Shown here piece after piece: positions 1-23,079 of a stretch of DNA of 23,719 nucleotides. The stretch spans positions 1 through 23,719 of the forward strand of contig JANQRM010000232.1 of the NCBI GenBank assembly GCA_028284565.1, in the 5' to 3' direction. The notes beneath the pieces are model-generated. The model ran no database searches, had not been told where the DNA came from, and saw only the letters and a list, made by a program, of their open reading frames with translations. Made by a program: the position numbers and the translations under genes. Position 1 is the first letter of the stretch. Every line of letters starts with the position of its first letter. This stretch comes from Anaerolineae bacterium. Its GTDB lineage: Bacteria; Chloroflexota; Anaerolineae; Aggregatilineales; Phototrophicaceae.

Positions 1-775
1 CGATGTTATAGACTTTCACATATTCATCGGAGGGTGTGCCAACATGGAAGGAGCGAGTCATGTCTGACCAATATCCCTTGACTGTGCCACCGAAATCGAC
101 AACGACGGCATCCCCATGATTGAGGGATCGGTTACCCACGTGATGATGCGGTGATGCGCCATTTTCCGCGATACCGACAATTGCACCGTAGGCAGTGTCA
201 TGCCCGTGTTGTGGCATGAGGTCAACCAAGCGGGCTTTGATTTCAATTTCCGTCGATCCAATGAGGGATGTTTGCAAGAGTGCCTCAAAGGTTTGGTCTG
301 CGGCTGAACCCGCTTGAGCAAGATACTCGATTTCTTGAGCTTCCTTGGCCATGCGAATCGGGTTCATTATATGCCCACCGGAAACCACACTTGCCTCTGG
401 GACAGCTTCTTGCAGATGGTACATGAAGAGCGTATACATTTTGTCCGCAACTCCCAAGGTCATGCCTCTGCCTTTGTTCGGCAACAATTCAGCAAAGCGT
501 TCTGTCGGAATCTCGGTTTCTTCCCAAGTGACGATTTCAAAGAAGGACGCGAGCGGCTCCGCTAAGGTACGTTCAAAACCCGGTAGGAGCAATTGGATGA
601 TCCCATCGCTAGGGATCATCAGCAAGGTGAGCCGTTCCGATTGTGGACGGTTCAACCCAATGAGATAGTACATATCCGACGAGGGAACGACCAACAAGTA
701 ATCCATGTTTGCGTTCTGTAAGCGTTCTTGTATTCGGCGACATCGGCTTTGATAATCAAACAGAGGTTGTTCCAT
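1..775 (-). CDS. M24 family metallopeptidase (Xaa-Pro aminopeptidase/creatinase fold), C-terminus beyond left edge
   Basis: Reading leftward from an ATG at 775, 258 codons stay open to the window edge, so the C-terminal part is missing. An N-terminal creatinase-type domain (about residues 5-130, with SSDMYYLIGLNRPQSERL) is followed by the start of the pita-bread catalytic domain. Two of the expected five metal ligands are visible: Asp227 in VVVDFGG and Asp238 in WSDMTRSF. The HGxG histidine and two glutamates would lie off the edge. The start has AAGGAT a few bases upstream and sits 3 bp past the stop of the preceding gene, so it is probably co-translated. It closely resembles the M24 gene at 12331 (SERL.LLMIP, NGASPHH, VVVDFGG, SDMTR.F), so the two are paralogs. 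Members of this family cleave Xaa-Pro bonds or C-N bonds in small molecules such as creatine; the substrate here is unknown. Confidence 0.9.
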   Translation of the reverse strand, partial: MEQPLFDYQSRCRRIQERLQNANMDYLLVVPSSDMYYLIGLNRPQSERLTLLMIPSDGIIQLLLPGFERTLAEPLASFFEIVTWEETEIPTERFAELLPNKGRGMTLGVADKMYTLFMYHLQEAVPEASVVSGGHIMNPIRMAKEAQEIEYLAQAGSAADQTFEALLQTSLIGSTEIEIKARLVDLMPQHGHDTAYGAIVGIAENGASPHHHVGNRSLNHGDAVVVDFGGTVKGYWSDMTRSFHVGTPSDEYVKVYNI

Positions 776-1330: not shown

Positions 1331-2389
1331 TCAGTTCGCTCGCGGTCCATGGGCGGCTTGTGTACCGCCGGTCTCGACAGCGACATCCACTGCCCCTTTA
1401 TACTTAAGGTCATCAATCAGGAACTCCCCATTCTCCATAATCTGAATGTCATCCACCCAATAGGAGTTGTTAAGACAGGGGAAGTCGATATGGGATTTAG
1501 TTAAGGTTTGTGCGCCGGGGAAGATACCGATATTAGAGCCAAAGGCAATCTGCATATTGGCATAGAAACACTCATTGTCCTGTCCGGGGATGAGCCAATT
1601 CGCCCGTTTTTCACAGCCCCAACCCACATGCGCGATGCGATACGAATCCTCGCTATTGAATTGGGCAAACCATCGGTTAATCAAATCCGCTTGCATCCCT
1701 CCTGTAATCTTAGTGATACGTCCATCCTTGAATTCCATATGAACAGGATCATGCACATATTGATTAAGGACTAACATATAATCGCCCGGAGATAAGACCA
1801 AAACACCCTCACCTTTATGTTCTTCTGGGGCGACACAGACCATCCCACTGGGCCAAATATCCCAACGTCCGGGAACATCAGAGACGCTGTAAATTCCCAG
1901 CGGTTCGCGTCCAGCTTTATAAAGAGTGAGGTCAGTGCCACCGGGAGAGGTAATCCGCATTTTGGTGGCGTTTGCCATCAATTCTTTACCCTTCAACACA
2001 CGTTCCTTCAGTTCCTTCGTCGGGAATAGACGACGCATTGTATTGACCGCAACACCAATCCGTTGCAAACGTGTGCCTGAATTCATGGACTCGCGCATGA
2101 TGTGTCCGTAGGCATGTGGACCGGAGGATACATCAATGACCAAATCGGCTCGCACCCATGCATCAATGACCGCCTTTTCCTCACGGTTTGGGTGAACAAT
2201 TTGGAAAACATCGGCATCTAATTGAATCGCCGCGCCCATGTATGCCGCCGCATAATGGGGCCAGCTTCCGGGGTCGGTATGAATGAGGACGTGTTCGCCG
2301 GGTTGGACATTGCACAGTTCAAGATGTTTACGAAACATATCCACGAGTTGAGTACTTGCTGAATAATCAAGAGGTAGTTTTTCAACCAT
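1331..2389 (-). CDS. NicX/M29-like Fe(II) ring-cleaving dioxygenase homolog, paralog 1
   Basis: A 352-residue protein resembling 2,5-dihydroxypyridine 5,6-dioxygenase (NicX), a family often auto-annotated as leucyl aminopeptidase or M29 peptidase. Shared landmarks are VPGRWDIWPSG (about 172-182), IAHVGWGCE (252-260) and KSHIDFPCLNNS (298-309). His254, His300 and Asp302 fall where NicX binds its mononuclear iron (two His and one Asp). NicX opens a hydroxylated pyridine ring with O2; the substrate here is inferred to be a small ring or amide compound. The length fits the family, plus about 22 extra Gly/Ala-rich residues at the C-terminus (YKGAVDVAVETGG...). AAGGAG lies 7 bp before the ATG. It is the first gene of a leftward operon behind a promoter with a TGGTNNNACCA operator. 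Its closest relative in the window is the copy at 6356 (shared xYxASTxLV start and NNS motif). Confidence 0.85.
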   Translation of the reverse strand: MVEKLPLDYSASTQLVDMFRKHLELCNVQPGEHVLIHTDPGSWPHYAAAYMGAAIQLDADVFQIVHPNREEKAVIDAWVRADLVIDVSSGPHAYGHIMRESMNSGTRLQRIGVAVNTMRRLFPTKELKERVLKGKELMANATKMRITSPGGTDLTLYKAGREPLGIYSVSDVPGRWDIWPSGMVCVAPEEHKGEGVLVLSPGDYMLVLNQYVHDPVHMEFKDGRITKITGGMQADLINRWFAQFNSEDSYRIAHVGWGCEKRANWLIPGQDNECFYANMQIAFGSNIGIFPGAQTLTKSHIDFPCLNNSYWVDDIQIMENGEFLIDDLKYKGAVDVAVETGGTQAAHGPRAN

Positions 2390-2434
2390 GAAATGACTCC
2401 TTATCCAAAAATGATTAACGGTACTGCCATACTA

Positions 2435-2447
2435 CTGGTATGACCAG
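2435..2447. promoter_or_regulatory. Operator A, palindrome CTGGT-ATG-ACCAG (GntR/FadR type)
   Basis: A perfect 5-bp inverted repeat around 3 bases lies directly downstream of the -10 box of promoter A on the minus strand. The core TGGTNNNACCA fits the published FadR-subfamily GntR consensus TNGTNNNACNA. The same core recurs at 6291 and 15181, each time next to a -10 box. The position would block transcription start, so repression relieved by a pathway metabolite is the likely mode (inference). Confidence 0.75.
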
Positions 2448-2449
2448 CT

Positions 2450-2478
2450 ATTATGACAACCCAATCTTGACTTGTCAA
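2450..2478 (-). promoter_or_regulatory. Promoter A, sigma-70 type, driving the 2389 to 1 operon
   Basis: On the minus strand a perfect -35 box TTGACA (2478-2473) is separated by 17 bases from CATAAT (2455-2450), 5 of 6 matches to the -10 consensus. The -35 box overlaps the stop codon of the upstream amidohydrolase gene, so the leftward genes can be transcribed independently of it. The -35 region is also part of the palindrome CTTGAC-AA-GTCAAG (2466-2479). Confidence 0.75.
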
Positions 2479-4064
2479 GCAGGCTCAGGCTTACCATTCA
2501 CGATCACCTGATGAATGGGCAAGTCAGGTAAGGACTCGATGTCCACCTTCATTGGGTCATCTTCTAGCACAACACAATCCGCCAACATCCCCGTTGCGAA
2601 CGAGCCTTTGATGTGTTCTTCTCCACAGGCATAAGCGGCATTCACCGTATACAATTCGATGGCTTCTTTGACCGAAATGCCTTCTGCTTCTGCGACGATT
2701 CGCCCGTTTCGGGACTGCCGCGTGACCGCAGTGTAGATGCCAAGCAAGGGACTTACATCAGGAACAACCGGTCCGTCGGAACTCCCAGCAACTGTCAGCC
2801 CAACATCCAAAAGAGTTTTGATGGGATACAACCAGTTAGCCCGTCCTTCCCCGACTCGATCCATATAAACATCGCCATCAAACCAGAGAAAAGGTGGCTG
2901 GACGACAGGTATCATCTCAAGTTGTTTGATACGTGCTGGCAAAGGTGGTATTGGTAATCCACAATGTTCGATTCGATGACGATGGTTGTGCATGGGTTTT
3001 TCTGCAAGAGCCTCTTCCACAGCATGTAAGACGCTGATGATGGCGGCATCACCAATCGCATGGACACTGACTCGTAGACCCGCATGATGAATGTCTCGTA
3101 CACGTTGGTTGAGTTCTTCTTGCTCCATCACCAATAAACCGCTTGTATCTGGATCATTCGTATAAGGCGAGGTCAAAGCGGCAGTGGCTCCACCAAAACC
3201 ACCATCTTGAAAGAGCTTCACCGCAACAAGACTCAGCCAGTCTCCAGTAAAGCGACTGGGCAGGGGGACTTCTTCACCACTGCGTAAGATTTTTTTGTGT
3301 GCCATCGTGACACGGATAGGGAGATTGCCCTCTGCGACCAACTTGCGATAGGCTTCAAGGTGGTCGGGTTCAATGCTCGGTTCCCAAACGGTGGTAATCC
3401 CTTTGCTTAAATTGTGACTTGCTCCTTCGAGAATGGCATCTTTAAGGGCTTGCGACGATGGGGGAGGTACAGCACGACGGAGCAGACGCATAGCCGTTTC
3501 ATGAAGTACGCCCGTCGGTTCGCCAGTATCCGAGTCACGCTCGATGTGTCCACCCGGCGGGTCGGGAGTATCGGAGGTAATTCCAGCTAAGTCCAACGCA
3601 CGACTATTGAGTGCCATAATATGTCCACACATCCGCGTTAAGAAAATAGGATGGTCTGTTGTGGCTTGGTCTAAATCGTAGCGGTTGGGATTGCGATTTT
3701 CGGCAAGGCGGGCATCATGATAGCCTCGTCCCTCTATCCACCTGCCGGACTTCGTTGTTGTTGCCTGTTGGCGAAGCTTCTCAACTATATCTCCGATGCT
3801 TGAGACAGAATCAGAAGTTGCATCCACTTGATGGAAGGATAGCCCCATGTAGAGTTGATGCTGATGGGCATCAATGAAGCCGGGTAAAACGGTCTTGCCT
3901 TGGAGGTCTATCACTTGTGTTGACGGGCGACGATAACCGTCAATTGCGCTGTTCGAGCCGAGTGCAATTATCTTCCCCTCTGCGATAGCCATTGCCTCGA
4001 CCATTGCGCCGTCCGGTCGTAGCGTGTGAATAACACCGTTCTTTAGGATAAGTTGAGCAGACAT
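2475..4064 (-). CDS. Amidohydrolase family 3 protein (YtcJ-like metal-dependent hydrolase)
   Basis: A 529-residue cytoplasmic amidohydrolase of the YtcJ/AepA type. The metal site is complete: HxH in FIDAHQHQ (His67, His69), the carbamylated-lysine candidate Lys283 in VKLFQDGG, His335 in SVHAIGD, His367 in RIEHC, and Asp430 in AGSSDGP. Small beta-sandwich segments flank the barrel at both ends (residues 1-60 and about 480-529). The family hydrolyses C-N bonds in amides, formamides and cyclic ureas; the exact substrate cannot be read from sequence. The ATG is 6 bp beyond the stop of the NicX-like gene at 4071 and its own ribosome site is weak, so coupled translation is likely. It closes a three-gene leftward operon with two NicX-like paralogs, which suggests it acts on a ring-opened product (inference). 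Confidence 0.92.
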   Translation of the reverse strand: MSAQLILKNGVIHTLRPDGAMVEAMAIAEGKIIALGSNSAIDGYRRPSTQVIDLQGKTVLPGFIDAHQHQLYMGLSFHQVDATSDSVSSIGDIVEKLRQQATTTKSGRWIEGRGYHDARLAENRNPNRYDLDQATTDHPIFLTRMCGHIMALNSRALDLAGITSDTPDPPGGHIERDSDTGEPTGVLHETAMRLLRRAVPPPSSQALKDAILEGASHNLSKGITTVWEPSIEPDHLEAYRKLVAEGNLPIRVTMAHKKILRSGEEVPLPSRFTGDWLSLVAVKLFQDGGFGGATAALTSPYTNDPDTSGLLVMEQEELNQRVRDIHHAGLRVSVHAIGDAAIISVLHAVEEALAEKPMHNHRHRIEHCGLPIPPLPARIKQLEMIPVVQPPFLWFDGDVYMDRVGEGRANWLYPIKTLLDVGLTVAGSSDGPVVPDVSPLLGIYTAVTRQSRNGRIVAEAEGISVKEAIELYTVNAAYACGEEHIKGSFATGMLADCVVLEDDPMKVDIESLPDLPIHQVIVNGKPEPA

Positions 4065-4070
4065 CGCCGA

Positions 4071-5099
4071 TTACTTCAGTTCTTCGATGACAAATTGCCC
4101 GTCCTCGATAATTGGCTTGCTGTCGAGTGCGATACTTACATTGAGACAATCAAAGTCCATATGGGCGGGGACATCGTTGTTTCCGCCAAGCAGAGGGGAA
4201 GTGTCCCGACCAAAGGCAATTTGTAAATCCCCATAAAAGGATTCAGCATCCCCAATCCCCCCCGGAATTTTGCTAGCAAGACGATTCCAATCCGCGCGAT
4301 GTTCGCAACCCCAACCCACATGCGAAATTTCGTAAGCGCGTTTATCATCCCATTTGGCAAACCACCGCTTCAACAACTGGGCATCTAGTTCGCCATCAAT
4401 CTTTGTAATGTGACCTTCTTCAACCGTGACTTTTATCGGTGTGCCGACGTAGCGTTGCATAGATAACAAAATGTCGCCAACATCCACAACGATTGTGCCA
4501 TTTGTGCCTTTGCGATTAGCAGGTACGACGACCAAGCCCATGGGCCAATGATCCCACATGCCGGGTTTATCCGCGACACCCCATAAGCCATAGGATTTAA
4601 GCCCCTCGACATTCACAACAATATCTGTCCCAGCCGGAGAACTGATTTGAAATTCCTTTGCATCATCTACCATCTGTTCCGAGAGTTTGGCACGATCACG
4701 CACGACGGGGTCAGGCGGAAGGCGAAACATTACATCCTCTGGTTCTGTCACCCGCAAGACTCGCGTCCCTGATGCCAAGGCACTCACCCGAAGTGGACGA
4801 TAGACACTGGTCGAAATCGACTCCAAATCAATGATTAAATCGACAGAATGCCAGACATCCCAGATGGGACCTGCTGTAATATCAGGTTGTTGAGTGGGGA
4901 TGGTGATTTGGAAGGCTTCTGCACCCAGCTGTTGCGCGGCGGCGACAAAAGCACTGGCGATATGAGGTGGACTGTGATGATCCGCATAGACCATCATGCG
5001 TTCACCCGCGCGTAATTGGCAGTGTTCCAGTACAGAACGAAATAGCGGAATCAAATCCGATGCCGCCCCCATCGAGTCTCGATATTGCCATGTCACCAT
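4071..5099 (-). CDS. NicX/M29-like Fe(II) dioxygenase homolog, paralog 2
   Basis: The reading frame is open from 5177, but the ATG at 5099 is preferred: it is preceded by GAGGTGAGG, avoids overlap with the upstream gene, and gives MVTWQYRDSMGA, aligned with the start of the next paralog. The resulting 342-residue protein carries the NicX-type iron site, His260 in EISHVGWGCE and His313/Asp315 in VPAHMDFDC, plus KPGMWDHWPMG and the GTIVVDVGDILL strand. It is closest to the adjacent paralog (shared PTQQ.DI..GPIWD.WH, RPLRVSAL, GIGD.ESF, FGRDTS, NDVPAH), so the pair looks like a tandem duplication that later diverged. The gap to the upstream stop is 22 bp and to the downstream amidohydrolase 6 bp, one operon. 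It probably cleaves a small (hetero)cyclic substrate; peptidase activity is a less likely alternative. Confidence 0.85.
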   Translation of the reverse strand: MVTWQYRDSMGAASDLIPLFRSVLEHCQLRAGERMMVYADHHSPPHIASAFVAAAQQLGAEAFQITIPTQQPDITAGPIWDVWHSVDLIIDLESISTSVYRPLRVSALASGTRVLRVTEPEDVMFRLPPDPVVRDRAKLSEQMVDDAKEFQISSPAGTDIVVNVEGLKSYGLWGVADKPGMWDHWPMGLVVVPANRKGTNGTIVVDVGDILLSMQRYVGTPIKVTVEEGHITKIDGELDAQLLKRWFAKWDDKRAYEISHVGWGCEHRADWNRLASKIPGGIGDAESFYGDLQIAFGRDTSPLLGGNNDVPAHMDFDCLNVSIALDSKPIIEDGQFVIEELK

Positions 5100-5121
5100 A
5101 TCCTCACCTCTATTATGTGCA

Positions 5122-6153
5122 TTACAGCATTGCTGTGTGAATAAAATGTCCTGCTTCCGTAATAGGGCTGTCATCAATCGTCATACTGTGCTGTAGGCAG
5201 TTGAAATCAATATGAGCTGGTACATCATTCGTTCCACCCCCGATATACCATGAGGTATCGCGCCCAAATGCAATTTGAAAAACACCGGGAAAGGATTCTA
5301 TATCACCTATGCCACCCGCCTGCTTACGTGCCATGCGATTCCAATCGGCACGCGGGTCACATCCCCAGCCAATATGCGAAATATAATAGGCGCGCGGGTC
5401 ATGCCATTGAGCGAACCACTGATTGAGCAACTGAGCATCTAAGCCGCCCTGAATGTCAGTGATGATTCCTTCTTCAATCTGGAGTTTGACAGGTGAGGAA
5501 ATGTAGCGTTGCATCCCAAGAATGACATCGCCTACATCTAAGACCAGCGTGCCATTGGTGCGTGGACGACTGGCTCCACCGACAACCACCCCCACTGACC
5601 AGTGATCCCATCGACCAGCTTCGTCTGCCGCGCCCCACAATCCAAAAGCCGAGCGTCCCTTGATGTTGACTTGTAGCTGAGTTCCGGCAGACGATGTCGC
5701 ATGGAAGACCTGACCCTGTTCGAGGATGTACTGGGCATGATTGACGCGATCTCGCACGCTCATTTCCGGTTGCAAACGATACAAATCATATTCAGGTTGT
5801 GTTATGCGGATGATACGCACACCTGCGTCTAGCGCGCTCACGCGGATGGGACGATAGATACTGGTCATGATGGATTCTAAATCAACCACCATATCCACCT
5901 GATGCCAGATGTCCCATATGGGTCCTGAGAGAATGTCCACTTGTTGGGTTGGTATGGTCAATTGGAAGCCATCTGCGCCCAAATCATGGCACGCCGCTAA
6001 AGATGCTGTCATGTAATGGTTCGGTGTGTGATGGTCAGCATAAATCATCACGGTTTCATGAGGTTGCACCTGACACAATTCAAAGGTACGACGAAACAGA
6101 GCAATCAGGTCAGTTGATGCACCAAGCGTCGGGCGATACTCCCATGAGACCAT
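5122..6153 (-). CDS. NicX/M29-like Fe(II) dioxygenase homolog, paralog 3
   Basis: The frame could begin at a GTG at 6162, but the ATG at 6153 has AGGTGG five bases upstream and gives a start aligned with paralog 2 (MVSWEYRPTLGAS). The protein is 343 residues. The iron-site residues are present: His260 in YISHIGWGCD and His314/Asp316 in VPAHIDFNC. RWDHW (about 181-185) and GTLVLDVGDVIL (about 201-212) match the family core. It differs from paralog 2 at NYMTAS-type loop positions near residues 45-60 and has ESFPGVF where the other copies have ESFYG.., which may reflect a different substrate pocket. It is the first gene of the leftward operon driven by the strong promoter at 6301-6329, with a leader of about 140 bases. 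Function in ring cleavage is inferred from family. Confidence 0.85.
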   Translation of the reverse strand: MVSWEYRPTLGASTDLIALFRRTFELCQVQPHETVMIYADHHTPNHYMTASLAACHDLGADGFQLTIPTQQVDILSGPIWDIWHQVDMVVDLESIMTSIYRPIRVSALDAGVRIIRITQPEYDLYRLQPEMSVRDRVNHAQYILEQGQVFHATSSAGTQLQVNIKGRSAFGLWGAADEAGRWDHWSVGVVVGGASRPRTNGTLVLDVGDVILGMQRYISSPVKLQIEEGIITDIQGGLDAQLLNQWFAQWHDPRAYYISHIGWGCDPRADWNRMARKQAGGIGDIESFPGVFQIAFGRDTSWYIGGGTNDVPAHIDFNCLQHSMTIDDSPITEAGHFIHTAML

Positions 6154-6256
6154 GCGAGCCACCTATCTCAACAGCTTGTTATGAGGAGGGGAGGACTTGT
6201 TGGTATTCATATCGCGGATTTGAAGAATAATTTTACAACGCTAAAGACTGATTTAT

Positions 6257-6285
6257 TTGCAGAGTGAAGTTAGATATGCTATGCT
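6257..6285 (+). promoter_or_regulatory. Promoter B-plus, for the rightward catabolic operon
   Basis: TTGCAG (6257-6262), 17 bases, then TATGCT (6280-6285). Both boxes have two departures from consensus, so this is weaker than its minus-strand partner. The operator at 6291 begins 6 bases after the -10 box and covers the expected start site. Confidence 0.5.
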
Positions 6286-6290
6286 TTGAC

Positions 6291-6301
6291 TGGTCTGACC
6301 A
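6291..6301. promoter_or_regulatory. Operator B, TGGTC-T-GACCA, shared by divergent operons
   Basis: A perfect 11-bp palindrome. It lies between the -10 boxes of two opposing promoters (6280-6285 on plus, 6301-6306 on minus) and overlaps the minus-strand -10 by one base. A regulator dimer bound here would cover both start sites. It has the same TGGTNNNACCA core as the sites at 2436 and 15181. Confidence 0.75.
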
Positions 6302-6329
6302 TTATACTCACTAGACCATAGATTGACAA
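6301..6329 (-). promoter_or_regulatory. Promoter B-minus, strong sigma-70 type, for the 6153 to 2475 operon
   Basis: On the minus strand TTGTCA (6329-6324), a 17-base spacer and a perfect TATAAT (6306-6301). The -10 runs directly into operator B (TATAATGGTCAGACCAG). This is the best -10 match in the window. Confidence 0.75.
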
Positions 6330-6355
6330 GCATGATTATTCTTAAGGATGTTTAG

Positions 6356-7378
6356 ATGAAAGACTTTCCATTAAGTTATAATGCGTCCACTGAGTTAGTC
6401 CCTCTCTTTAAGAACTCCTTATCGCTGTGTAACCTGAACGACCAAGAAACCCTCCTCATTTATAGTGACACGCATACCAATCCACATTATCCTGCCGCCG
6501 CAATGGGTGCAGCCCTTGAAATAGGAGCAGAGTCATTTCATGTCCAAGTTCCCACAACCGTGCCAGAGAATGATAAGGGCGTGATTGCGGACATCTGGGC
6601 AGGCGTGGATATGGTTATTGACCTCGTCAGTACAGTGGCTCATGCTTATTCATTGCTCAATGCCGCCGCCTTAGAAAATGGGGGACGTGTGTTGCGCTGT
6701 GGACAACCCCAAGATGTGTTGATGCGCCTGTATCCAACGCCGCTAATCCGCAAACGTGCCAAAGCAGGAGCCGACTTGCTTCGTAAGGCTTCCACCATGC
6801 GGGTGACATCAGAAGCTGGCACTGACCTGACGGTAAGTGTGAAAGATAAAGTCGTCCTCGATTTATATAGCTTGGCAGATGAACCGGGACGCTGGGACAA
6901 CTGGCCCACAGGGATGGTCACAGCGGGTCCTGATGAATATAGTGCTAATGGAACACTGGTCTTAGACATTAATGATGTCATCCTTCGCTTAGGACGTTAT
7001 GTGTCTTCCCCTGTCAAAATGACCCTTCGGGATGGGCTGATTGTCAAAATTGAAGGCGGACTCGATGCCCGACTACTCGAGGACTGGTTCTCGTCTTTTA
7101 ATGATGAGACGGCTTATCGCATTGCTCATATTGGCTGGGGTTGTGAAGACCGCGCCGATTGGAATCGGATGGGGGCTTATCTCAAAGAAGGGGCTGTGCA
7201 GGATCAAGAATCGTTTTATGGCAATATGCAAATCGCCTTTGGAGCCAATACCGCCATCTTTCAAGGTCAAAACGTCTCGAAAGCGCATATGGATTTCCCA
7301 TGCCGAAACAACAGCATCTGGCTCGATGATTTGCAAATTCTGGATAAAGGGCAATTTCTAATTGAGGATTTGAAATAA
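6356..7378 (+). CDS. NicX/M29-like Fe(II) dioxygenase homolog, paralog 4
   Basis: A 340-residue protein and the first gene of the long rightward operon. The NicX iron-site residues are His258 in RIAHIGWGCE and His311/Asp313 in SKAHMDFPC. DEPGRWDNWPTG (175-186) matches NicX DEPGRWDHWPSG almost exactly, making this and paralog 1 the copies nearest in motif to the characterised enzyme. AAGGA sits 7 bases before the ATG. The stop TAA abuts the ATG of the aminotransferase gene (TAAATG), so translation is coupled. The start sits about 65 bases downstream of operator B. NicX converts 2,5-dihydroxypyridine to N-formylmaleamate; whether this copy shares that reaction is unknown, since no pyridine hydroxylase of the NicC type is visible in the window. 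Confidence 0.87.
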   Translation: MKDFPLSYNASTELVPLFKNSLSLCNLNDQETLLIYSDTHTNPHYPAAAMGAALEIGAESFHVQVPTTVPENDKGVIADIWAGVDMVIDLVSTVAHAYSLLNAAALENGGRVLRCGQPQDVLMRLYPTPLIRKRAKAGADLLRKASTMRVTSEAGTDLTVSVKDKVVLDLYSLADEPGRWDNWPTGMVTAGPDEYSANGTLVLDINDVILRLGRYVSSPVKMTLRDGLIVKIEGGLDARLLEDWFSSFNDETAYRIAHIGWGCEDRADWNRMGAYLKEGAVQDQESFYGNMQIAFGANTAIFQGQNVSKAHMDFPCRNNSIWLDDLQILDKGQFLIEDLK

Positions 7379-8615: not shown

Positions 8616-9746
8616 ATGAAACTCACTCATGCTGAAGTCATTTTGACAAAAATCCCCACCAAACGATTACATCGCATGTCGTTTGCCACAACACGTCATC
8701 AGGAATGTGTCTATATCCGCTTACACACTGATGAAGGTATTGTTGGACTTGGGGAAGCTCCCCACATGGCGGGCTATTCAGGCGCAGGCGAAACGCAGGC
8801 AACCGTCGCCATTCAATTGAAGAATCGCCTCATACCAGCCATTCTCGGCAAAGACCCCTTCCAAATCGAGGCACGACAGATTGACCTTGACCGTGCTGTG
8901 CCGTGGAATCCGCGGGCGAAAAGCGCGATTAATATGGCACTCTATGACATCATGGGGAAAGCATTTGATACGCCCGTCTACAATTTACTCGGTGGGCTAG
9001 TCCGTGACCGCGTCCCGCTGAGCTGGTCAATTCCCATTACCGACCATCCAGCGGCAATCGCAGATGCCGAAGCAATGGTGGAACAAGGCATTGGCATCCT
9101 CAAGATGAAAACGGGTCATGAAGACCCTGACCACGATATTGAGCGCACCCGACAAGTCCGCAAGGCGGTGGGAGATGATATTCGCTTGCGGGCAGATGCC
9201 AATCAAGCATGGGATGTGAATACGGCGATTTATGTCATCCGTTCGATGGAATCTGAAAATATCGAATTCATGGAGCAACCGGTAAAAATTTGGGATTTGG
9301 ATGGGCTGGCTGAAGTTCGCAAAGCGGTCAACACCTACATAATGGCAGATGAAAGTGCCAATTCGCCGATGGATGTCCTCAACCTCGCCAAAAAACGCGC
9401 TGTCGATTTGATTAGTATCTATGTCAACAATCCCGGTGGCTTAACCAACGCCAAGAAAATGTCGATTGTTGCTGAACCAGCAGGTATCGGTTGTTATATC
9501 GGTGGCGCATTGGAAGGACCCATTGGCGCGCGGGCTTGTCTCCATCTGGCGGCATCTTCACCGAATGTAACATGGGGATGTGAGATGGGCGGACAGTTCT
9601 TACTCGAAGCCGACTTAGGTGCAGAGTCCATTGCCTTTGTTGATGGACATATGATGGTCCCACAAGGTCCGGGACTAGGGGGTGACTTAGACCCCGACAA
9701 ACTTGCCCAGTATCAGATTGATTCATTTGAAGTGCATCCTGAATGA
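8616..9746 (+). CDS. Mandelate racemase/muconate lactonizing enzyme family protein with altered second catalytic lysine
   Basis: A 376-residue enolase-superfamily enzyme. The ATG at 8616 is chosen over an in-frame TTG at 8610 because AAGGAA precedes it by 7 bases. The N-terminal capping domain (about 1-125) is followed by the barrel. Lys163-x-Lys165 in ILKMKTGH is the KxK base of the muconate-cycloisomerase subgroup; Mg ligands are Asp194 (RADANQ), Glu220 (FMEQP) and Asp245 (MADES); Glu300 is in GGALEGPIG. The second general acid/base lysine, normally in a LK...GG strand, is replaced by Tyr269 (SIYVNNPGG). Cycloisomerase, racemase, epimerase or dehydratase chemistry is possible. The 3' end overlaps the MATE gene by 4 bases (ATGA), so the two are co-translated. 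Confidence 0.9.
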   Translation: MKLTHAEVILTKIPTKRLHRMSFATTRHQECVYIRLHTDEGIVGLGEAPHMAGYSGAGETQATVAIQLKNRLIPAILGKDPFQIEARQIDLDRAVPWNPRAKSAINMALYDIMGKAFDTPVYNLLGGLVRDRVPLSWSIPITDHPAAIADAEAMVEQGIGILKMKTGHEDPDHDIERTRQVRKAVGDDIRLRADANQAWDVNTAIYVIRSMESENIEFMEQPVKIWDLDGLAEVRKAVNTYIMADESANSPMDVLNLAKKRAVDLISIYVNNPGGLTNAKKMSIVAEPAGIGCYIGGALEGPIGARACLHLAASSPNVTWGCEMGGQFLLEADLGAESIAFVDGHMMVPQGPGLGGDLDPDKLAQYQIDSFEVHPE

Positions 9747-11065
9747 TACCCTCTGCGCGAACGATCCTGAGCCTTGCGCTCCCGATGGCGGGTGAACAGT
9801 TCCTGATTTTTGGAATTGCGTTGTTCGATACCGCCTTGGCAGGGCAGTTAGGTGTCGAACATATATCGGCGCAGATTGTGGTGGTTCGCTGGGTACAATT
9901 TACCTCTGTGATTTTTAGCATCATGAGTGTCGGTGGGTCAATACTCGTAGCACAGACGATTGGGCGTGAAGATTTCGACTCCGCCAATGATGTCTTGTCA
10001 GGTTCCCTTCTGATGGCATTAGTTTCGGGTCTGTTCGTCACTGCGATTGCTATCAGTTTTAGCTCTATGCTAATTGGGCTGATGGGTGTAGATACAGCGG
10101 TGACTGCACTGAGTTTGCCCTATCTCCAAGTGATGAGTTTATCCTTCCCCCTAACCTTTATGCTCTTGAGTGCCAGTGGATGTATTCGCGGTGCTGGGGA
10201 TGCAAGAACACCTCTCATTATCATCGGGCTTGCCAACTTCGTCCATCTCTTTGTAGCCCTTATCTTAGTCTTTGGCATGGAATACGGTCTGCAAGGCATT
10301 GCCTATGCGACGATTTTCAGTCGTGGGTTAGGACTGGTGTTGTTTACGGTGTTGTTACTTCGTGGGATGGCGAATCTTCGCCTTGACCGTTTGATTCCTC
10401 GCCTTGAGTCGATTCGTGAGATTTGGGGGGTGGGCAAGGCGGTTGGAGGCGAACAATTGGCACTGCGCTTGGGACAACTCGTGAATCTGCGCTTGATTAC
10501 GACGTTAGGCACACAACTGCTGGCGGCATATACCGTTGTTCTCAACAGCTTATCCCTGATTTTGCTGATGGGACTAGGCTTCATGATGGCAAGCCTGACG
10601 ATTATCGGTCAGCAAGTTGGCGCAGATGAAGATCAATTTGTCTATCGGACAAGCTGGCGGATGGTCTATGTGGCATGGGCGGTCATGGGTGGAATGAGCC
10701 TGTTGTTCTTTGTCGTACCGGCTGTCAATCAACTCTTCACCAATAATCCAGACATACTCCACATTGCCAATTCGGGTTTACGCATCATCCTCTTTGGTGT
10801 GATTTTTGAAGTGGTTAATCAGGTGTTGACCGGTGTGCTACGTGGCTCAGGCGATACCCAATCTCCCATGATTATCACGACGGTTGGACATTGGCTGATT
10901 CGCTTGCCCCTCATCCTCATCTTTATCCATATCTTTAACTTAGGTCTCAATGGCGTGTGGTTCGCCATGATTATCGAGATGGCAGTTCGTGCTGTCTGGA
11001 ATAGCAAGCGCGTCCACACCGCCTTTTACATGCTGTCCGCAAAATCAAAGGTGTATTCGCATTAA
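9743..11065 (+). CDS. MATE family efflux transporter
   Basis: A 440-residue, very hydrophobic protein with about twelve predicted membrane helices in two related halves. Family features include the N-terminal LALPMAGEQFLIF helix, the GCIRGAGDARTPL segment near residue 150 and its counterpart GVLRGSGDTQSPM near 365, which mark the pseudo-twofold repeat. MATE proteins expel drugs, toxins or metabolites in exchange for Na+ or H+. The start overlaps the preceding enolase-superfamily gene by ATGA, so it belongs to the catabolic operon. It may export a toxic intermediate or surplus substrate (inference). The C-terminus ends with a short charged tail, normal for the family. Confidence 0.93.
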   Translation: MIPSARTILSLALPMAGEQFLIFGIALFDTALAGQLGVEHISAQIVVVRWVQFTSVIFSIMSVGGSILVAQTIGREDFDSANDVLSGSLLMALVSGLFVTAIAISFSSMLIGLMGVDTAVTALSLPYLQVMSLSFPLTFMLLSASGCIRGAGDARTPLIIIGLANFVHLFVALILVFGMEYGLQGIAYATIFSRGLGLVLFTVLLLRGMANLRLDRLIPRLESIREIWGVGKAVGGEQLALRLGQLVNLRLITTLGTQLLAAYTVVLNSLSLILLMGLGFMMASLTIIGQQVGADEDQFVYRTSWRMVYVAWAVMGGMSLLFFVVPAVNQLFTNNPDILHIANSGLRIILFGVIFEVVNQVLTGVLRGSGDTQSPMIITTVGHWLIRLPLILIFIHIFNLGLNGVWFAMIIEMAVRAVWNSKRVHTAFYMLSAKSKVYSH

Positions 11066-11119
11066 TTTCAGCAACCCATGAGCAGAACCATTTTTGAATC
11101 AATCCTATGGAGGAAACCC

Positions 11120-12328
11120 ATGAGCCAGCGAGAACCCGCTTATTCCATGTTCCCAACGGAAGAATTTGTAACCCGCGTGGAAAAAGCCCAACAATTAATG
11201 GATGAACGCAATATTGATGCGCTCTTATTGACCGCGAAAGAAAATGTAATTTATTTTTCAGGGATTCGCACGATTGGATGGAACTCGAAACACCGTCCGA
11301 TGGGGGTGGTTGTTCCGCGCGACAACAGCAAACCCGTGACCCTTATCATTCCAGAGAACTTGATAGATGTAGCCCACCACTCCTCTTGGATTGATGAAGT
11401 GCGTCCATGGGGAGGTTGGCGCGTCCAAGATGCCGACCCCGACCCACTGACAGGATTTTATGAAGCCTGTATCAATGTCGGTGCAGACCAAGGCACCATT
11501 GCCTTAGAAATGGGTTATGGTCAACGCATAGCGATGTCGCAAGATGACTTTAAGACGCTGACAGGACGCTTATCCAGTGCAACATTTGTCGATGCAGGTC
11601 CTTTGATGTGGGATTTACGGATGATTAAATCTCCACGCGAAATCGACTCCCTGCGCAAAGCCTGTCATGCCACGACCAAAGCCTTTGAAAAAGGGTTTAA
11701 TGCCATCCGACCCGGCATGACAGAACGCGAACTTGGTGGCATCATTATGTCGGAGGTTGCCTTGCAAACAGAAGAGTTACCGGGCTTCATCATGATTCGC
11801 TCTGGCGAAATGAAGTATGGCATGGTCAATGTTGCTCCATTTGAAAAACCGATGGAGCCGGGTGATTTGGTCGTGGTCGATGTCGGCGCGAATTACAATT
11901 ACTACTGGTCAGATTTCATGCGTATGGCAAGTATCGGAGAACCCAATGCTGAGCAAAAGCGATTCTTTGCCGCAGAAATCGCCTCACAGAAGGCAGGAGT
12001 TGCAGTGATAAAGCCCGGTATAAAATTACATGAAATCTTCGACGCTTGCTATGAAGTCTTGATGGAACACAATATGAAAGAGCATGTTCCCGGTTTGGAA
12101 CGGGTGGGGCATGGTGTTGGACTCGATGTGCATGAACCACCATCCATTGCTAAAGGGAGCGAGACTATCGTTCAGCCGGGCATGGTGCTGACTGTGGAGC
12201 CAATCTTCTGGGATCGTCCGCATCACGTCGTTGGCAACTTTGCGATGGAAGATGTCGTCTTGGTCACGGATGATGGGCATGAAATCCTGAGTACCTTCCC
12301 CAAAGACTTGTTTATTGTCGAGGCTTAG
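11120..12328 (+). CDS. M24 family metallopeptidase (Xaa-Pro aminopeptidase-like), complete
   Basis: The frame is open from 11078, but the ATG at 11120 follows a strong GGAGGA at 6 bases spacing and is chosen, giving 402 residues. All five dinuclear metal ligands of the M24 fold are visible: Asp254 (VVVDVGA), Asp265 (YWSDF), His331 (GHGVGLDVHE), Glu360 (LTVEP) and Glu377 (FAMEDVV). An N-terminal creatinase-like domain covers about 15-165. It is longer and more divergent than the other two M24 copies, with IRTIGWNSKHRPMG near residue 49 and the unusual FWDRPHHVVGNF loop at 363-374 before the last ligand. Such enzymes include aminopeptidase P and small-molecule amidinohydrolases. The gap to the next M24 gene is 2 bp, so they are a co-translated pair. 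Confidence 0.9.
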   Translation: MSQREPAYSMFPTEEFVTRVEKAQQLMDERNIDALLLTAKENVIYFSGIRTIGWNSKHRPMGVVVPRDNSKPVTLIIPENLIDVAHHSSWIDEVRPWGGWRVQDADPDPLTGFYEACINVGADQGTIALEMGYGQRIAMSQDDFKTLTGRLSSATFVDAGPLMWDLRMIKSPREIDSLRKACHATTKAFEKGFNAIRPGMTERELGGIIMSEVALQTEELPGFIMIRSGEMKYGMVNVAPFEKPMEPGDLVVVDVGANYNYYWSDFMRMASIGEPNAEQKRFFAAEIASQKAGVAVIKPGIKLHEIFDACYEVLMEHNMKEHVPGLERVGHGVGLDVHEPPSIAKGSETIVQPGMVLTVEPIFWDRPHHVVGNFAMEDVVLVTDDGHEILSTFPKDLFIVEA

Positions 12329-12330
12329 GC

Positions 12331-13431
12331 ATGACCATTCATCAAGAGCGTTGCCAACGCGCACAACAGGCAATGGCGCAAAAGGGCATCGACTGGCTCT
12401 TTGTCTCGCATTCGACAGACTTGCTCTATCTTATCGGCTTTACCAAACGTCCGAGTGAACGGCTGGCGTTGCTGATGATTCCCCAATCAGGTCGTCCGCA
12501 AATGGTTGTCCCAGCTTTTGAGTTAGATGTATTCGAGAAATACGCAAGGTTTTTTGATCTTGTTGGCTGGCAGGAAACGGAAAATCCTGTCCACAAAGTT
12601 GGGGATATTGTCGGTGGCGATGTTGCAGGGCAGACAATTGCGATTGGTGACCAACTCCATGCCGCCTTTTTATTGCGGATCCAATCCATCTTGCCCCAAG
12701 CACAATATCGTGAAGGATACGAGATACTCGCCCACCTCCGCATGATTAAAACCCAAGATGAAATTAATCACCTTCGTTCAGCGGCACACGGGGCAGACCG
12801 ATCCTTAGAAGCCTTATTTGAGCAACCTTTGTTCGAGATGACGGAACTCGATGTCATCAAATTTTTGCACGCTCAGTTGTTGCAAAATGGACATGAATCC
12901 GTCGGGACAGGTATCGTTGGAGCAGGCGCGAATGGTGCATCTCCGCATCACAAAACCAGCCAACGTCGACTACAGCGAGGGGATGCTGTGGTGGTCGATT
13001 TTGGTGGTGGACTCAATGGCTATCGTTCCGATATGACTCGGACATTCCAACTCGGTGAACCCGCAGACGAATTTCGGGAAATCTATGAAATCACCAAAGA
13101 AGCACAGCAACTCGCCTTTGAAGCTATTAAACCCGGAGTCACTGCGGAAACAATTGATGAGGTCGCACGCACCTATATCACCCAACGTAATTACGGCGAC
13201 TATTTCCTGCATCGTACCGGGCATGGCATCGGACTCGATGGACATGAGTATCCCTATATCATCGCGGGCGATCAAACGGTACTCCAAGAAGGCATGACCT
13301 TTAGCGTGGAGCCGGGCATCTATTTAAAAGGCAAATACGGTGTCCGCATCGAAGATATTGTCGTAGTCACTTCAACAGGAGCAGAACGCTTGAATGAATT
13401 CCCGCGCGACTTGCGTGAGATCGATTCCTAA
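12331..13431 (+). CDS. M24 family metallopeptidase (Xaa-Pro dipeptidase-like), complete
   Basis: A 366-residue protein with a full M24 metal site: Asp223 (VVVDFGG), Asp234 (RSDMTRTF), His298 (RTGHGIGLDGHE), Glu327 (SVEPGIY) and Glu341 (RIEDIVVV). The N-terminal creatinase-type domain spans about 1-130. RTGHGIGL and EPGIYL.G.YGVRIED are the textbook motifs of bacterial Xaa-Pro peptidases such as PepQ, so proline-dipeptide cleavage is plausible, more so than for the copy at 11120. It is closely related to the partial gene at 1-775. The ATG is 2 bp after the preceding stop, so coupling replaces a clear ribosome site. Next downstream is the amidase, 18 bp away. Confidence 0.92.
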   Translation: MTIHQERCQRAQQAMAQKGIDWLFVSHSTDLLYLIGFTKRPSERLALLMIPQSGRPQMVVPAFELDVFEKYARFFDLVGWQETENPVHKVGDIVGGDVAGQTIAIGDQLHAAFLLRIQSILPQAQYREGYEILAHLRMIKTQDEINHLRSAAHGADRSLEALFEQPLFEMTELDVIKFLHAQLLQNGHESVGTGIVGAGANGASPHHKTSQRRLQRGDAVVVDFGGGLNGYRSDMTRTFQLGEPADEFREIYEITKEAQQLAFEAIKPGVTAETIDEVARTYITQRNYGDYFLHRTGHGIGLDGHEYPYIIAGDQTVLQEGMTFSVEPGIYLKGKYGVRIEDIVVVTSTGAERLNEFPRDLREIDS

Positions 13432-13449: not shown

Positions 13450-15123
13450 ATGGACACTTCATACCAGACAACCCAATCCAATCTCACCACAGAGACCATC
13501 TCAGTGGCAGAAACCCTGATTGATATCACCTTCACACCACAAGAACGCGAGTTGATGCTCAAGTCACTTATTCAACGGGTGAAGGATTATCAATCGATTC
13601 GTCGTGTCCAAATGGCAAACGCGCTTGCACCGCCCTTGTATTTCGACCCGCGTGTTTCGATTCCAGCTGTAGACAACGAGCGACACTATCATCCGAGTCA
13701 ACAGGAACCGATTGAACGTCCCGCCAATTTAGAAGATGTCGCCTTTTTTTCAGTGTCGCAATTGGCGCACTTGATCCGAACTCAGCAGGTGACATCACTC
13801 GAATTGACCGAAATGTATCTTGAACGGTTAAAGCATCACAATCATCGATTGGAGTGTGTGATTACCTTTACGGAAGACCGTGCAATCCAACAAGCCAAAC
13901 AAGCTGATGAAGAGATTGCTGAGGGGCATTATCGTAGTCCACTCCATGGTATCCCATGGGGCGCAAAAGACCTCATCGCTGTGAAAGGCTATCCCACCAC
14001 ATGGGGCAGTTCAGTCTATCAGAAGCAACAATTCGATGAGGATGCCACCGTCGTCAAACGATTGGATGAGGCAGGCGCAGTCTTGATTGCAAAATTGGCG
14101 ACAGGTGAACTCGCATACGGCGATCAATGGTTCGATGGCTCCACCAAGAATCCGTGGAATCCACAAGAAGCATCCGGTGGGTCTTCCGCAGGTCCTGCAT
14201 CAGCAGTTGGTGGAGGACTGGTCGGTTTTGCACTCGGCACAGAGACAACCGGCTCAATACTCTGGCCCGCACTCCGTTGTGGTGCCGTGGGTTATCGCCC
14301 GACTTTTGGATTGGTTAGTCGCCATGGCGTGATGATTTTGTCATGGACACTTGATAAAGTGGGTCCCATTGCACGCAGTGTCGAGGATTGCGCTTGGATT
14401 CTGAACGCCATCTACGGACCGGATTCACATGATGCCTATACGATTGATTTCCCATTAGAATGGGCGTTTGATATTGATATGAGCCAAATTCGAGTCGGTT
14501 ATGTTCCCAAAGCCTTTGAAGATGCACCTGTTTCACAAGATCATGACCACGCAACCGTCAGCCCGCTCAAACAAATGGGAATCGATCTACGAGAAAATAA
14601 AGGCAATGATCGTCGGACTTTAGATACCTTACGCAAGCTAGGTGTGAAATTAATTCCTATCGAATTACCAGATTTTGATCTCGATGCACTCCTCATTATT
14701 CTTGGGATTGAAGGGGCATCCGTTTTTAGTGACCTTACCCTCAATAACCAAGACGACAAGCTGGTAAATCAAGATGAAATGGCAAGTCCAAACCGCTTCC
14801 GCCAAGCGCGTTTTGTTCCGGCAGTAGAGTATCTTCAAGCCAATCGCATTCGTGGGCAACTCATGTCTGCAATGGCGGCTTTGATGCCGGAGGTGGATGT
14901 GATTGTCTCGCCACAGCTTGCCAACAACAATCTCACATTGACCAATTTAACAGGGCAACCCTCCATTGGTATCGTAAATGGATTTACGGACGAAGGGATG
15001 CCGACAGGGATTAATTTTATTGGTGGGGTAGGGAAAGATGCTCAACTCCTTGCCATTGCATATCAGGTTCAATTGGCAACTAATTTTCATCACCGACATC
15101 CAGAGATGAATTATGATCAATAA
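13450..15123 (+). CDS. Amidase signature (AS) family hydrolase
   Basis: A 557-residue protein with the Ser-cisSer-Lys triad of the amidase signature family: Lys173 in IPWGAKDL, Ser245 in ASGGSSAGPAS, and nucleophile Ser269 in GTETTGSILWPA (24 residues after Ser245, the same spacing as in other members). The nucleophile segment differs from the usual GTDTGGS by Glu265 and Thr267. An extension of about 90 residues precedes the conserved core, including a helical FTPQERELMLKSLIQRVKDY stretch. It hydrolyses an amide bond releasing ammonia or an amine; GatA is unlikely because GatB/GatC are not nearby and the residues 330-450 segment is unlike it. It is the last gene of the rightward catabolic operon, followed by 213 bp that hold promoter C. 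Confidence 0.92.
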   Translation: MDTSYQTTQSNLTTETISVAETLIDITFTPQERELMLKSLIQRVKDYQSIRRVQMANALAPPLYFDPRVSIPAVDNERHYHPSQQEPIERPANLEDVAFFSVSQLAHLIRTQQVTSLELTEMYLERLKHHNHRLECVITFTEDRAIQQAKQADEEIAEGHYRSPLHGIPWGAKDLIAVKGYPTTWGSSVYQKQQFDEDATVVKRLDEAGAVLIAKLATGELAYGDQWFDGSTKNPWNPQEASGGSSAGPASAVGGGLVGFALGTETTGSILWPALRCGAVGYRPTFGLVSRHGVMILSWTLDKVGPIARSVEDCAWILNAIYGPDSHDAYTIDFPLEWAFDIDMSQIRVGYVPKAFEDAPVSQDHDHATVSPLKQMGIDLRENKGNDRRTLDTLRKLGVKLIPIELPDFDLDALLIILGIEGASVFSDLTLNNQDDKLVNQDEMASPNRFRQARFVPAVEYLQANRIRGQLMSAMAALMPEVDVIVSPQLANNNLTLTNLTGQPSIGIVNGFTDEGMPTGINFIGGVGKDAQLLAIAYQVQLATNFHHRHPEMNYDQ

Positions 15124-15336: not shown

Positions 15337-16935
15337 ATGTTCAAACAAAAACTCGTTTTATGCTTGTTATGCTGTCTTTTAATCGTTCCATTTAGCGGGG
15401 TGATGGCACAAGAACCTCAATCAGGTGGAACATTAACCTTTGCCTTTTCATCGGATTGGGGTGTATTAGATCCTGCCGCGACCACCGTGACCTTTGCTCG
15501 AAATATCATGCGCTTCGTGTATGATCCCTTGCTCCGTAAGGACCCTGCCACAGGTGCAATTGTTCCCGGATTAGCTGAATCATTCGAGTCAAGTGAGGAT
15601 GGTACGGTTATCACCCTCAATTTACGGCAAGATGTGACCTTCCACGACGGGACACCCTTTAATGCTGAATCCGTGCGTTTCTCATTTGAGCGCATCAATG
15701 ATCCTGAACTGGCTTCACCATGGGCGGCGGCAATCTCCGGTCCCGTCGAATCCTTAGAAACACCCGATGACTTTACTGTGGTCATCACTCTCGCCGAACC
15801 CTTTGCACCCTATCTGGATTCCTTGACTCAAATTGGACTGGCTCCAGTTTCACAAGCCGCAGTTGAAGAATTTGGACAAGACTTTGGACTGAATCCCGTC
15901 GGCACGGGTCCCTTCCGCTTTGTCAGCACTATCCCCGACGAAGAAGTCGTCCTAGAGCGTAACCCCGACTACAACTGGGGACCCTCCTATGCCGACCATG
16001 AAGGTCCTGCCTATCTCGATCAAATCATAGTCCTCAATGTAGAAGAGGGTAGTACCCGCATGGCGTTGGTCGAAACTGGCGATGTCAACTTGGTTTACAA
16101 CCCACTGATTAACCAATTATCGTCGTTTGCTGATGATCCCGGATTCATGGTTGCCACAGCAGTTCGTCCCGGTGTCCCACGGGTCTTCGTCCTCAATACG
16201 GAAGTTTTTCCCTTCGACGACCCAGCGACCAGACAAGCTGTTGCATGGGCAGTAGATCGGGAACGGATGCTCAATGAAGTCTTTGACAACATTGGCGCAG
16301 TACCCGGTGGTGTCTTGACTCGTGGATTATTTGGCTACTGGGCAGATGGCGAAGCCGATTGGCCCGGCTACGACCTAGACCGTGCCGCAGAATTGCTCGC
16401 CGAAGCAGGTTGGGAAGATACTGACGGGGATGGTGTTGTTGAGAAAGACGGTCAACCCTTCTCCATTACCTACGGCCAGATTCCAGGCTTCCCCTTCGAC
16501 CAATTTGGGCAAATCTTTGTGGCAGACTTGGCGAAAATCGGTGTCGAGGTGTCAATAGAAAATGAAGAACAAGCCGCCTATCTAGCCGACTTGCGGGCGG
16601 GTAAATGGGAACTGGCAGGTATGTTGTTCCCCGCAACCGACCCCGATGTCTTATTCGTAATCGCGCATTCGTCTTCGATTGATGCGGCGTGGAATACGGC
16701 ACGCTATAATAATCCAGACGTGGATCGCTTACTTGCAGAAGGTCGTGTGACCCTTGATCAAGAAGCCCGCGCCGCAATTTACGAGGAGATACAACAGATT
16801 ATGCTGGCAGACATGCCCTATATTCCGTTCTATCAAATCGAACAAGCCTTCTTGATGACCTCAGATGTCCAAGGCTTCAAGACAGACGCACAGGGATTTT
16901 TCGACTTCTATGATACGTGGTTTGCGAGTAACTAA
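15337..16935 (+). CDS. ABC transporter substrate-binding protein, family 5 (peptide/nickel/oligopeptide type)
   Basis: A 532-residue secreted protein. Residues 1-24 form a Sec signal peptide (KQK, then a hydrophobic run, with cleavage predicted after VMA). No lipobox is evident despite several cysteines inside the hydrophobic run. The mature part has family 5 landmarks: GGTLTFAFSSDWGVLDPA at the start, LRQDVTFHDGTPFNAESV near residue 100, and PVGTGPF near 187. A DTDGDG acidic loop follows AELLAEAGWE near residue 360, common in this family. It binds dipeptides, oligopeptides or other small solutes outside the membrane and passes them to the two permeases downstream. The separate operator-controlled promoter and position next to the catabolic genes suggest it captures the pathway substrate (inference). 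Confidence 0.95.
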   Translation: MFKQKLVLCLLCCLLIVPFSGVMAQEPQSGGTLTFAFSSDWGVLDPAATTVTFARNIMRFVYDPLLRKDPATGAIVPGLAESFESSEDGTVITLNLRQDVTFHDGTPFNAESVRFSFERINDPELASPWAAAISGPVESLETPDDFTVVITLAEPFAPYLDSLTQIGLAPVSQAAVEEFGQDFGLNPVGTGPFRFVSTIPDEEVVLERNPDYNWGPSYADHEGPAYLDQIIVLNVEEGSTRMALVETGDVNLVYNPLINQLSSFADDPGFMVATAVRPGVPRVFVLNTEVFPFDDPATRQAVAWAVDRERMLNEVFDNIGAVPGGVLTRGLFGYWADGEADWPGYDLDRAAELLAEAGWEDTDGDGVVEKDGQPFSITYGQIPGFPFDQFGQIFVADLAKIGVEVSIENEEQAAYLADLRAGKWELAGMLFPATDPDVLFVIAHSSSIDAAWNTARYNNPDVDRLLAEGRVTLDQEARAAIYEEIQQIMLADMPYIPFYQIEQAFLMTSDVQGFKTDAQGFFDFYDTWFASN

Positions 16936-16970
16936 CGTTATCGTAGTTCACCTGCACGATCACCAAATTG

Positions 16971-17009
16971 GCAAGCGGGGTATCTATTTGCATAGATGCC
17001 CTGGCTTGC
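16971..17009 (+). other. Intercistronic stem-loop between binding protein and permease genes
   Basis: GGGTATCTAT (16978-16987) pairs with ATAGATGCCC (16992-17001) around a TTGC loop, ten pairs with one G-U. An outer GCAAGC (16971-16976) pairs with GCTTGC (17004-17009) across a small internal loop. No T-run follows, so it is not a clear rho-independent terminator. A likely role is 3' protection of the binding-protein mRNA or partial attenuation, giving more binding protein than permease (inference). Confidence 0.65.
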
Positions 17010-17030
17010 TGATTTGAATGGAGGCGAGTT

Positions 17031-21825: not shown

Positions 21826-21840
21826 CGAAATCCCAGCCTC

Positions 21841-23073: not shown

Positions 23074-23079
23074 CACAAG

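Follow-up and report, generated by a model that had tools for sequence, protein, structure and literature searches.

The window, by which we mean the whole stretch of 23,719 nucleotides that was analysed, contains four NicX-family paralogs within 6 kb (named N1 to N4 here), all of which are intact open reading frames. The window appears to be an entire contig, as the homolog P0121, which is N2 itself, has a longest contig of 23,719. The surroundings of the paralogs include several enzymes and an importer, as listed below with positions in the window. L001-L004 are four loci from related genomes.

2..775, minus strand: M24 enzyme, truncated at the contig end
779..1324, minus strand: 181-aa protein, between N1 and the cut M24 gene
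1331..2389, minus strand: N1, NicX-family paralog, 352 aa
2475..4064, minus strand: amidohydrolase (Amidohydro_3), between N1 and N2
4071..about 5099, minus strand: N2, NicX-family paralog, 342 aa
5122..6162, minus strand: N3, NicX-family paralog, tandem partner of N2
6163..6355: 193-base intergenic gap that separates N3 (minus) from the divergent N4 (plus)
6356..7378, plus strand: N4, NicX-family paralog, 340 aa
7379..8563, plus strand: class V aminotransferase (alanine/serine-glyoxylate type), syntenic in L001-L004
8610..9746, plus strand: enolase-superfamily protein of the muconate-lactonizing/dipeptide-epimerase group
9743..11065, plus strand: MATE-type efflux protein
11078..12328, plus strand: M24 (creatinase/prolidase family) enzyme
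12331..13431, plus strand: M24 enzyme, prolidase-like
13450..15123, plus strand: amidase
15337..18940, plus strand: oligopeptide-type ABC importer (SBP_bac_5 binding protein at 15337-16935 and two permeases, the permeases syntenic in L001-L004)
18946..19956, plus strand: luciferase-like oxidoreductase with approximate start codon, whose nearest solved relatives are F420-dependent

The minus-strand unit comprises, in order, N3, N2, the Amidohydro_3 gene, N1, the gene of the 181-aa protein and the cut M24 gene, while the plus-strand unit starts with N4 and continues with the aminotransferase, enolase, MATE, two M24 and amidase genes, followed by the importer and the luciferase-like oxidoreductase. 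From the sequence alone the four paralogs had been supposed to be under common control, but they belong to two units, with N4 diverging from N3, N2, and N1 across the 193-base gap. A divergent promoter in this gap was considered and found to be a weak candidate, because the single sigma-70-like match, on the minus strand, compares to 0.8 matches expected and is thus not above chance. By eye, the gap has no recognisable likeness in the relatives. The 181-aa protein has no Pfam, NCBIfam, or significant PDB match. Further downstream (20485-23718) are genes for a GH1 glycosidase, a membrane protein weakly similar to PIG-V, and an incomplete minus-strand protein, which are probably unrelated to the cluster.

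Family membership and annotation

Each of the four paralogs matches the structure of Pseudomonas putida NicX (7cn3; E-values of 2e-37 for N1, 3e-47 for N2, 6e-44 for N3, and 2e-55 for N4), and the kinship extends over the full or nearly the full length in all of them. The NicX fold is also predicted for N1 and N4, in models that do not include the metal. The RWDxW segment is kept as RWDIW in N1, MWDHW in N2, RWDHW in N3, and RWDNW in N4. Antibody chains also appeared among the structure matches and are regarded as chance matches. Matches named as the crocagin biosynthesis proteins CgnE and CgnB are far more distant from N1 to N4. NicX-like genes on plasmid records have an identity of less than 60% (31-34% in the 30 matches listed).

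The sequence-only reading of the locus holds for the presence of four NicX-like paralogs, for the RWDxW segment, and for the iron-binding triad. It does not hold for the completeness of the active sites, for the common control, and for the expectation that automated annotation would call these proteins aminopeptidases. Among the matches listed, those named by JGI are called "2,5-dihydroxypyridine 5,6-dioxygenase" and the seven NCBI-named matches on the branch of N1 to N4 (six from Chloroflexota and one from Armatimonadota) "hypothetical protein", while the name "leucyl aminopeptidase" appears twice, both times on the NicX side. The homology of NicX and HpdF to metallo-aminopeptidases is already in print, as the available part of PMC7356986 describes both as homologous to these enzymes and presents a NicX model that loses one metal site. 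In a limited search of the open literature, which is no proof of absence in print, we found no paper joining dihydroxypyridine, dioxygenase, and Chloroflexi. The available part of a SAR202 paper (PMC6946804) does not contain the terms aminopeptidase, M29, COG2309, ring-cleav, ring-opening, or pyridine.

The metal site compared to NicX and to M29 peptidases

According to the available part of PMC7910607, NicX is a homohexamer and binds its iron through His265, Ser302, His318, and Asp320, with Arg293 positioning Asp320 and with Glu177 and His189 holding the substrate. Alanine at any of the four ligands or at Arg293 abolishes activity and iron binding, and the E177A and H189A variants retain 2.7% and 6.9% of the activity, respectively (PMC7910607, same part). 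In an alignment with NicX the paralogs have the following residues (NicX numbering).

N1: Y105 I177 I189 H265 E293 Q300 A302 H318 D320
N2: Y105 L177 H189 H265 E293 Q300 A302 H318 D320
N3: as N2 at all ten scored positions
N4: Y105 L177 N189 H265 E293 Q300 A302 H318 D320

The H...HxD motif is thus present in every paralog as H265...H318xD320. Together with the predicted fold of N1 and N4, the RWDxW segment, and the length, these residues make up the likeness to NicX (7cn3, 7cup) and HpdF. However, the fourth iron ligand of NicX, Ser302, is Ala in all four paralogs and Arg293 is Glu. In addition, Glu177 is replaced by Leu or Ile and His105 by Tyr throughout, the segment around Cys76 is missing, and His189, which is kept in N2 and N3, is Ile in N1 and Asn in N4. 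What had been called complete active sites is therefore complete with respect to the 2-His-1-Asp triad only. No gaps occur in the alignment between 293 and 304, and the residue readings there are therefore independent of gap placement. Because NicX is dead without Ser302 or Arg293, the site of N1 to N4 might hold another metal or run another reaction.

We take the dinuclear metal ligands of the M29 peptidases to be Glu, Glu, His, His, and Asp. Measured against this list, the first Glu is M, L, V, and M in N1 to N4, respectively, the second Glu is His, and the first His is Gln, so that the last two ligands (His and Asp) alone are kept in all four paralogs. The Gln is Gln300, and the His that M29 has at this position presumably binds zinc. 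Judged by sequence and the assumed ligands, N1 to N4 thus differ from the M29 aminopeptidases (AmpS, AmpT, PepS) in having no dinuclear site. A placement of all four inside M29 is ruled out by the lost ligands together with the closer kinship and fold shared with NicX, and the view that the paralogs are NicX relatives and not M29 peptidases stands, with three of the five metal ligands replaced in each of them. The Pfam family PF02073 (cut-off 27 bits) scores 25.7 for N4 and 14.1 for N1 and does not match N2 and N3; the score of N4 is taken as near the cut-off because four of its close homologs have a PF02073 call in the protein database, precomputed or newer. Four M29 proteins from related genomes have Glu293, His300, and Ala302. 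Since Glu293 and Ala302 are shared by the M29 proteins read, they are probably the older state and Arg293/Ser302 the change on the NicX side, a direction that we infer from this sharing.

A distinct clade within the NicX family

In a tree of 71 rows, which were hand-picked from 232 and include no M29 outgroup, N1 to N4 fall apart from NicX, inside a 57-row clade supported at 99/99. A FastTree tree of the 232 rows rooted on M29 contains a 186-tip clade (0.92) and a 37-tip NicX clade (0.964), with poor deep supports and with P0080, P0087, and P0093, which have Glu293, outside both. By these trees, N1 to N4 are members of a distinct clade within the NicX family.

The clade can also be recognised by its residues. 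We scored 215 homologs of at least 300 aa, drawn from the best 120 of 326 matches to N4 and the best 120 of 215 matches to N2; P0121 (N2 itself, 342 aa) and shorter proteins were left out. Because of this sampling the following proportions lean to the clade of N1 to N4. Glu293/Gln300/Ala302 is present in 169 of the 215 homologs and Ser302 in 35, always with Arg or Leu at 293, while 11 match neither signature; the His/His/Asp triad is kept in 212. Arg293 is not universal on the NicX side, where 12 of the 215 have Leu. The rule has exceptions, as 3 of 243 rows (including genome loci) pair Glu293 with Ser302. Two proteins, P0045 and P0058, have lost His265 (Val or Leu), contain Arg300/Gly302, and are possibly non-catalytic or metal-free.

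Distribution and conservation

The same cluster is found in synteny in all of L001-L004, which are from MAGs labelled Anaerolineaceae, Anaerolineae, or Chloroflexi. Their genomes encode three copies, of the N1-, N3-, and N4-type, and no further copy was detected at E 1e-3. A single gene replaces N2 and N3 in these loci and groups with N3 where it was placed (L001 and L004). The Amidohydro_3 gene is unmatched at E 1e-5 in the 21-kb stretches of the four relatives. N4- and N2-type matches share the sizes of the longest contigs (35158, 97682, 34505, 28577, and 28765), which suggests that both types occur together elsewhere too, equal size being only a proxy for this.

Among 98 genomes from this bacterial family, 58 contain some match at E 1e-3, of which five are beyond 1e-60 (the L001-L004 genomes and G035), 19 are between 1e-25 and 1e-30, and 34 are weaker. 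The open reading frames read from the second group belong to an intermediate family (L022, L023), and those from the third to M29 (L028-L031). Matches at E 1e-60 were obtained in 2 of 301 genomes sampled across the phylum and in 18 of 396 sampled across the class, some of which (e.g. G136 and G694) have the NicX-side signature. The family of N1 to N4 is rare. Between L001 and L004, dN/dS is about 0.14 for N1, 0.07 for N3, and 0.08 for N4, and these three types are under purifying selection in this pair; only this pair was used because silent sites between the window and the relatives are saturated. Overall, N1 to N4 are genuine and conserved NicX-family paralogs whose metal site is altered.

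Relations among the four paralogs

N2 and N3 are adjacent and 56% identical, in agreement with the tandem pair proposed before. The second proposed pair, N1 and N4, are nearest to each other by raw identity (47%), but the 71-row tree weakly joins N4 to N2/N3 (82/76), and the FastTree tree makes this connection with a support of 1.0. A clade of N1 and N4 is not rejected (p-AU 0.317). A duplication of N2/N3 private to this lineage was also considered and discarded, because the single copy of L001 and L004 groups with N3 and N2 has orthologs of its own. Judged by the 71-row tree, the tandem pair of N2 and N3 is old, and each of the two has its own orthologs.

The pocket positions 189 and 308 are Ile/Gly in N1, Asn/Ala in N4, and His/Ser in N2 and N3. 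These group-specific residues are kept in 22 of the 33 tips around N1 and in 22 of the 28 tips of the N4 clade, with His189 in five of these 28. N2 and N3 are identical at the ten scored site positions and differ by Val/Ile at 104 and Tyr/Phe at 175. Given these largely group-specific residues at 189 and 308, the suggestion that the copies act on different substrates is plausible for N1, N4, and N2/N3 as groups, but it is not supported for N2 versus N3.

Genomic neighbourhood

An ortholog of the enolase-superfamily protein (65-78% identical) is located within the cluster in all five genomes searched. L001 contains two extra genes flanking its N1/M24 part, an ATC-hydrolase-like gene beside N1 (L001:4714-5340) and an octopine-dehydrogenase-like gene (L001:7744-8838); neither family is matched by the 20 open reading frames of the window that were scanned against Pfam. 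The more distant genome G479 has two NicX-like genes, one of which is 59% identical to N1, in the neighbourhood of binding protein, permease, creatininase-like, M24, octopine-dehydrogenase-like, and enolase genes.

The linkage to the importer was counted in nine chosen genomes through its binding protein (PF00496), with G136 and G694 left out. In six of the nine, a binding protein is encoded no more than 5.2 kb away from a NicX-like gene (0.94 expected), and in all nine no more than 12.3 kb away (1.74 expected), where both distances were picked after seeing the data and the expectation is derived from the frequency of binding proteins. Only G001, G004, and G479 of the nine have Glu293/Gln300/Ala302, and the nine include two pairs of closely related genomes; if one member of each is dropped, the counts are five of seven and seven of seven, respectively. 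No binding-protein gene is present in the stretches around the NicX-like genes of G136 and G694, which have the NicX-side signature, and importer linkage outside the branch of N1 to N4 is therefore disfavoured. We assume that NicE belongs to PF17645 (maleate-isomerase type). A PF17645 gene was found in none of the five genomes with a window-type cluster, MAGs which may be incomplete, and in both of the two genomes with a tandem triple of NicX-like genes (see below).

Possible functions of the paralogs

With slightly better than even confidence, we regard N1 to N4 as a distinct clade of NicX-family enzymes that would bind one metal, probably Fe(II), and use O2 on a ring compound different from 2,5-dihydroxypyridine. 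In each paralog the metal would sit on a simple 2-His-1-Asp facial triad, to which Gln300 perhaps adds a fourth ligand, and O2 would be used to open or oxidise the ring. The substrate would probably enter through the oligopeptide-type importer. 2,5-Dihydroxypyridine is an unlikely substrate because the residues that bind it are changed and PF17645 was found in none of the five window-type genomes. The M24 enzymes, the amidase, the luciferase-like oxidoreductase, the muconate-lactonizing-type enzyme, and the aminotransferase could act before and after this step, the muconate-lactonizing-type enzyme on the ring-opened product. Given their different pockets, N1, N4, and N2/N3 would probably act on different substrates or in different steps, and N2 and N3, sharing one pocket type, may be near-redundant or form mixed oligomers.

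It could also be imagined that N1 to N4 are one-metal proteins of the M29 fold that descend from a peptidase ancestor and hydrolyse amide or peptide-like bonds. The neighbouring Opp-type importer, prolidase-like M24 enzymes, and amidase would fit such a function, as would Glu293 and Ala302, which are common to the M29 proteins read and not to NicX. However, three of the five assumed M29 metal ligands are gone in all copies, His265 is common to NicX, and by descent and fold the paralogs stand far nearer to NicX, so that we consider hydrolysis unlikely although worth keeping in mind. The JGI annotation as ordinary 2,5-dihydroxypyridine 5,6-dioxygenases agrees with the shared family and fold and with the three kept iron ligands, but Ser302 and Arg293, both essential in NicX, and Glu177, without which 2.7% of the activity is left (PMC7910607, available part), are replaced in every paralog. 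That PF17645 was found in none of the five window-type genomes points in the same direction, with the reservations that the MAGs may be incomplete, that NicE is assumed to belong to this family, and that both genomes with a tandem triple have such a gene. This annotation is thus very improbable. That the copies mostly serve dosage, or together build one mixed hexamer and do not divide substrates among them, is suggested by the agreement of N2 and N3 at the ten scored site residues and by the homohexamer of NicX (PMC7910607, available part). But the groups of N1, N4, and N2/N3 mostly retain their own residues at 189 and 308, and the relatives carry only a single counterpart of N2 and N3, found on the N3 side in L001 and L004, making general redundancy rather improbable.

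Returning to the preferred reading of a one-metal, O2-using clade, the comparison to NicX deserves attention. The Ser ligand of its iron was put forward as an unusual feature of NicX and shown to be essential (PMC7910607, available part). The neighbouring clade of N1 to N4 is without Ser302 and Arg293 and yet keeps the triad, under purifying selection in the L001/L004 pair. Therefore, members of this clade are probably misnamed where the name was transferred from NicX.

Ligand positions that may have moved

Tandem triples of NicX-like genes are present in ten genomes of the class (L064:9770-10858, L071:9847-10935, and L072-L079). All ten middle copies (L064, L071, L072, and L073-L079) contain His302 and Gly320, and an oligopeptide-type importer follows the triple at both loci of which longer stretches were read (L064 and L071). 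These middle copies possibly have a three-His metal site in the NicX fold. A search with the middle copy, in which the 7997 candidates sharing most words were scored, yielded 45 proteins, of which 43 were new. Two of these are shorter than 300 aa and were left out; among the remaining 41, 25 have His302/Gly320, 15 have Asp320, and one has a gap at 320, and Gly320 without His302 does not occur in this set. P0080 contains Glu302/Gly320. In the cases seen, Gly320 is accordingly found only with His302 or Glu302, and wherever Asp320 is lost, residue 302 is one that could bind a metal. A role of 302 as a ligand position throughout the family is supported by this pattern, and Ala302 in N1 to N4 would therefore be a vacated one. 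In N4, Gln300 and Ala302 (residues 292 and 294) are placed on one predicted strand (291-296), and Gln300 perhaps binds the metal in N1 to N4.

As a tentative and rather doubtful extension, the NicX family could represent a series that leads from an M29-type two-metal site to several one-metal sites, with ligands having moved among positions 293, 300, 302, and 320. The site types would be Ser302/Asp320 in NicX, Gln300/Ala302/Asp320 in N1 to N4, His302/Gly320 in the middle copies, and Glu302/Gly320 in P0080. N1 to N4 would then be an uncharacterised class with a Gln metal ligand, and the three paralog types of the cluster would act one after another on a single imported compound, either N-heterocyclic or peptide-like. 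The covariation of 302 and 320 suggests, in a form that can be tested directly, how one fold may rebuild its metal site. The proteins of L022 and L023, which have about 334 aa and lie between NicX and M29, contain the equivalents of His265, His318, and Asp320 and have Asp at 300.
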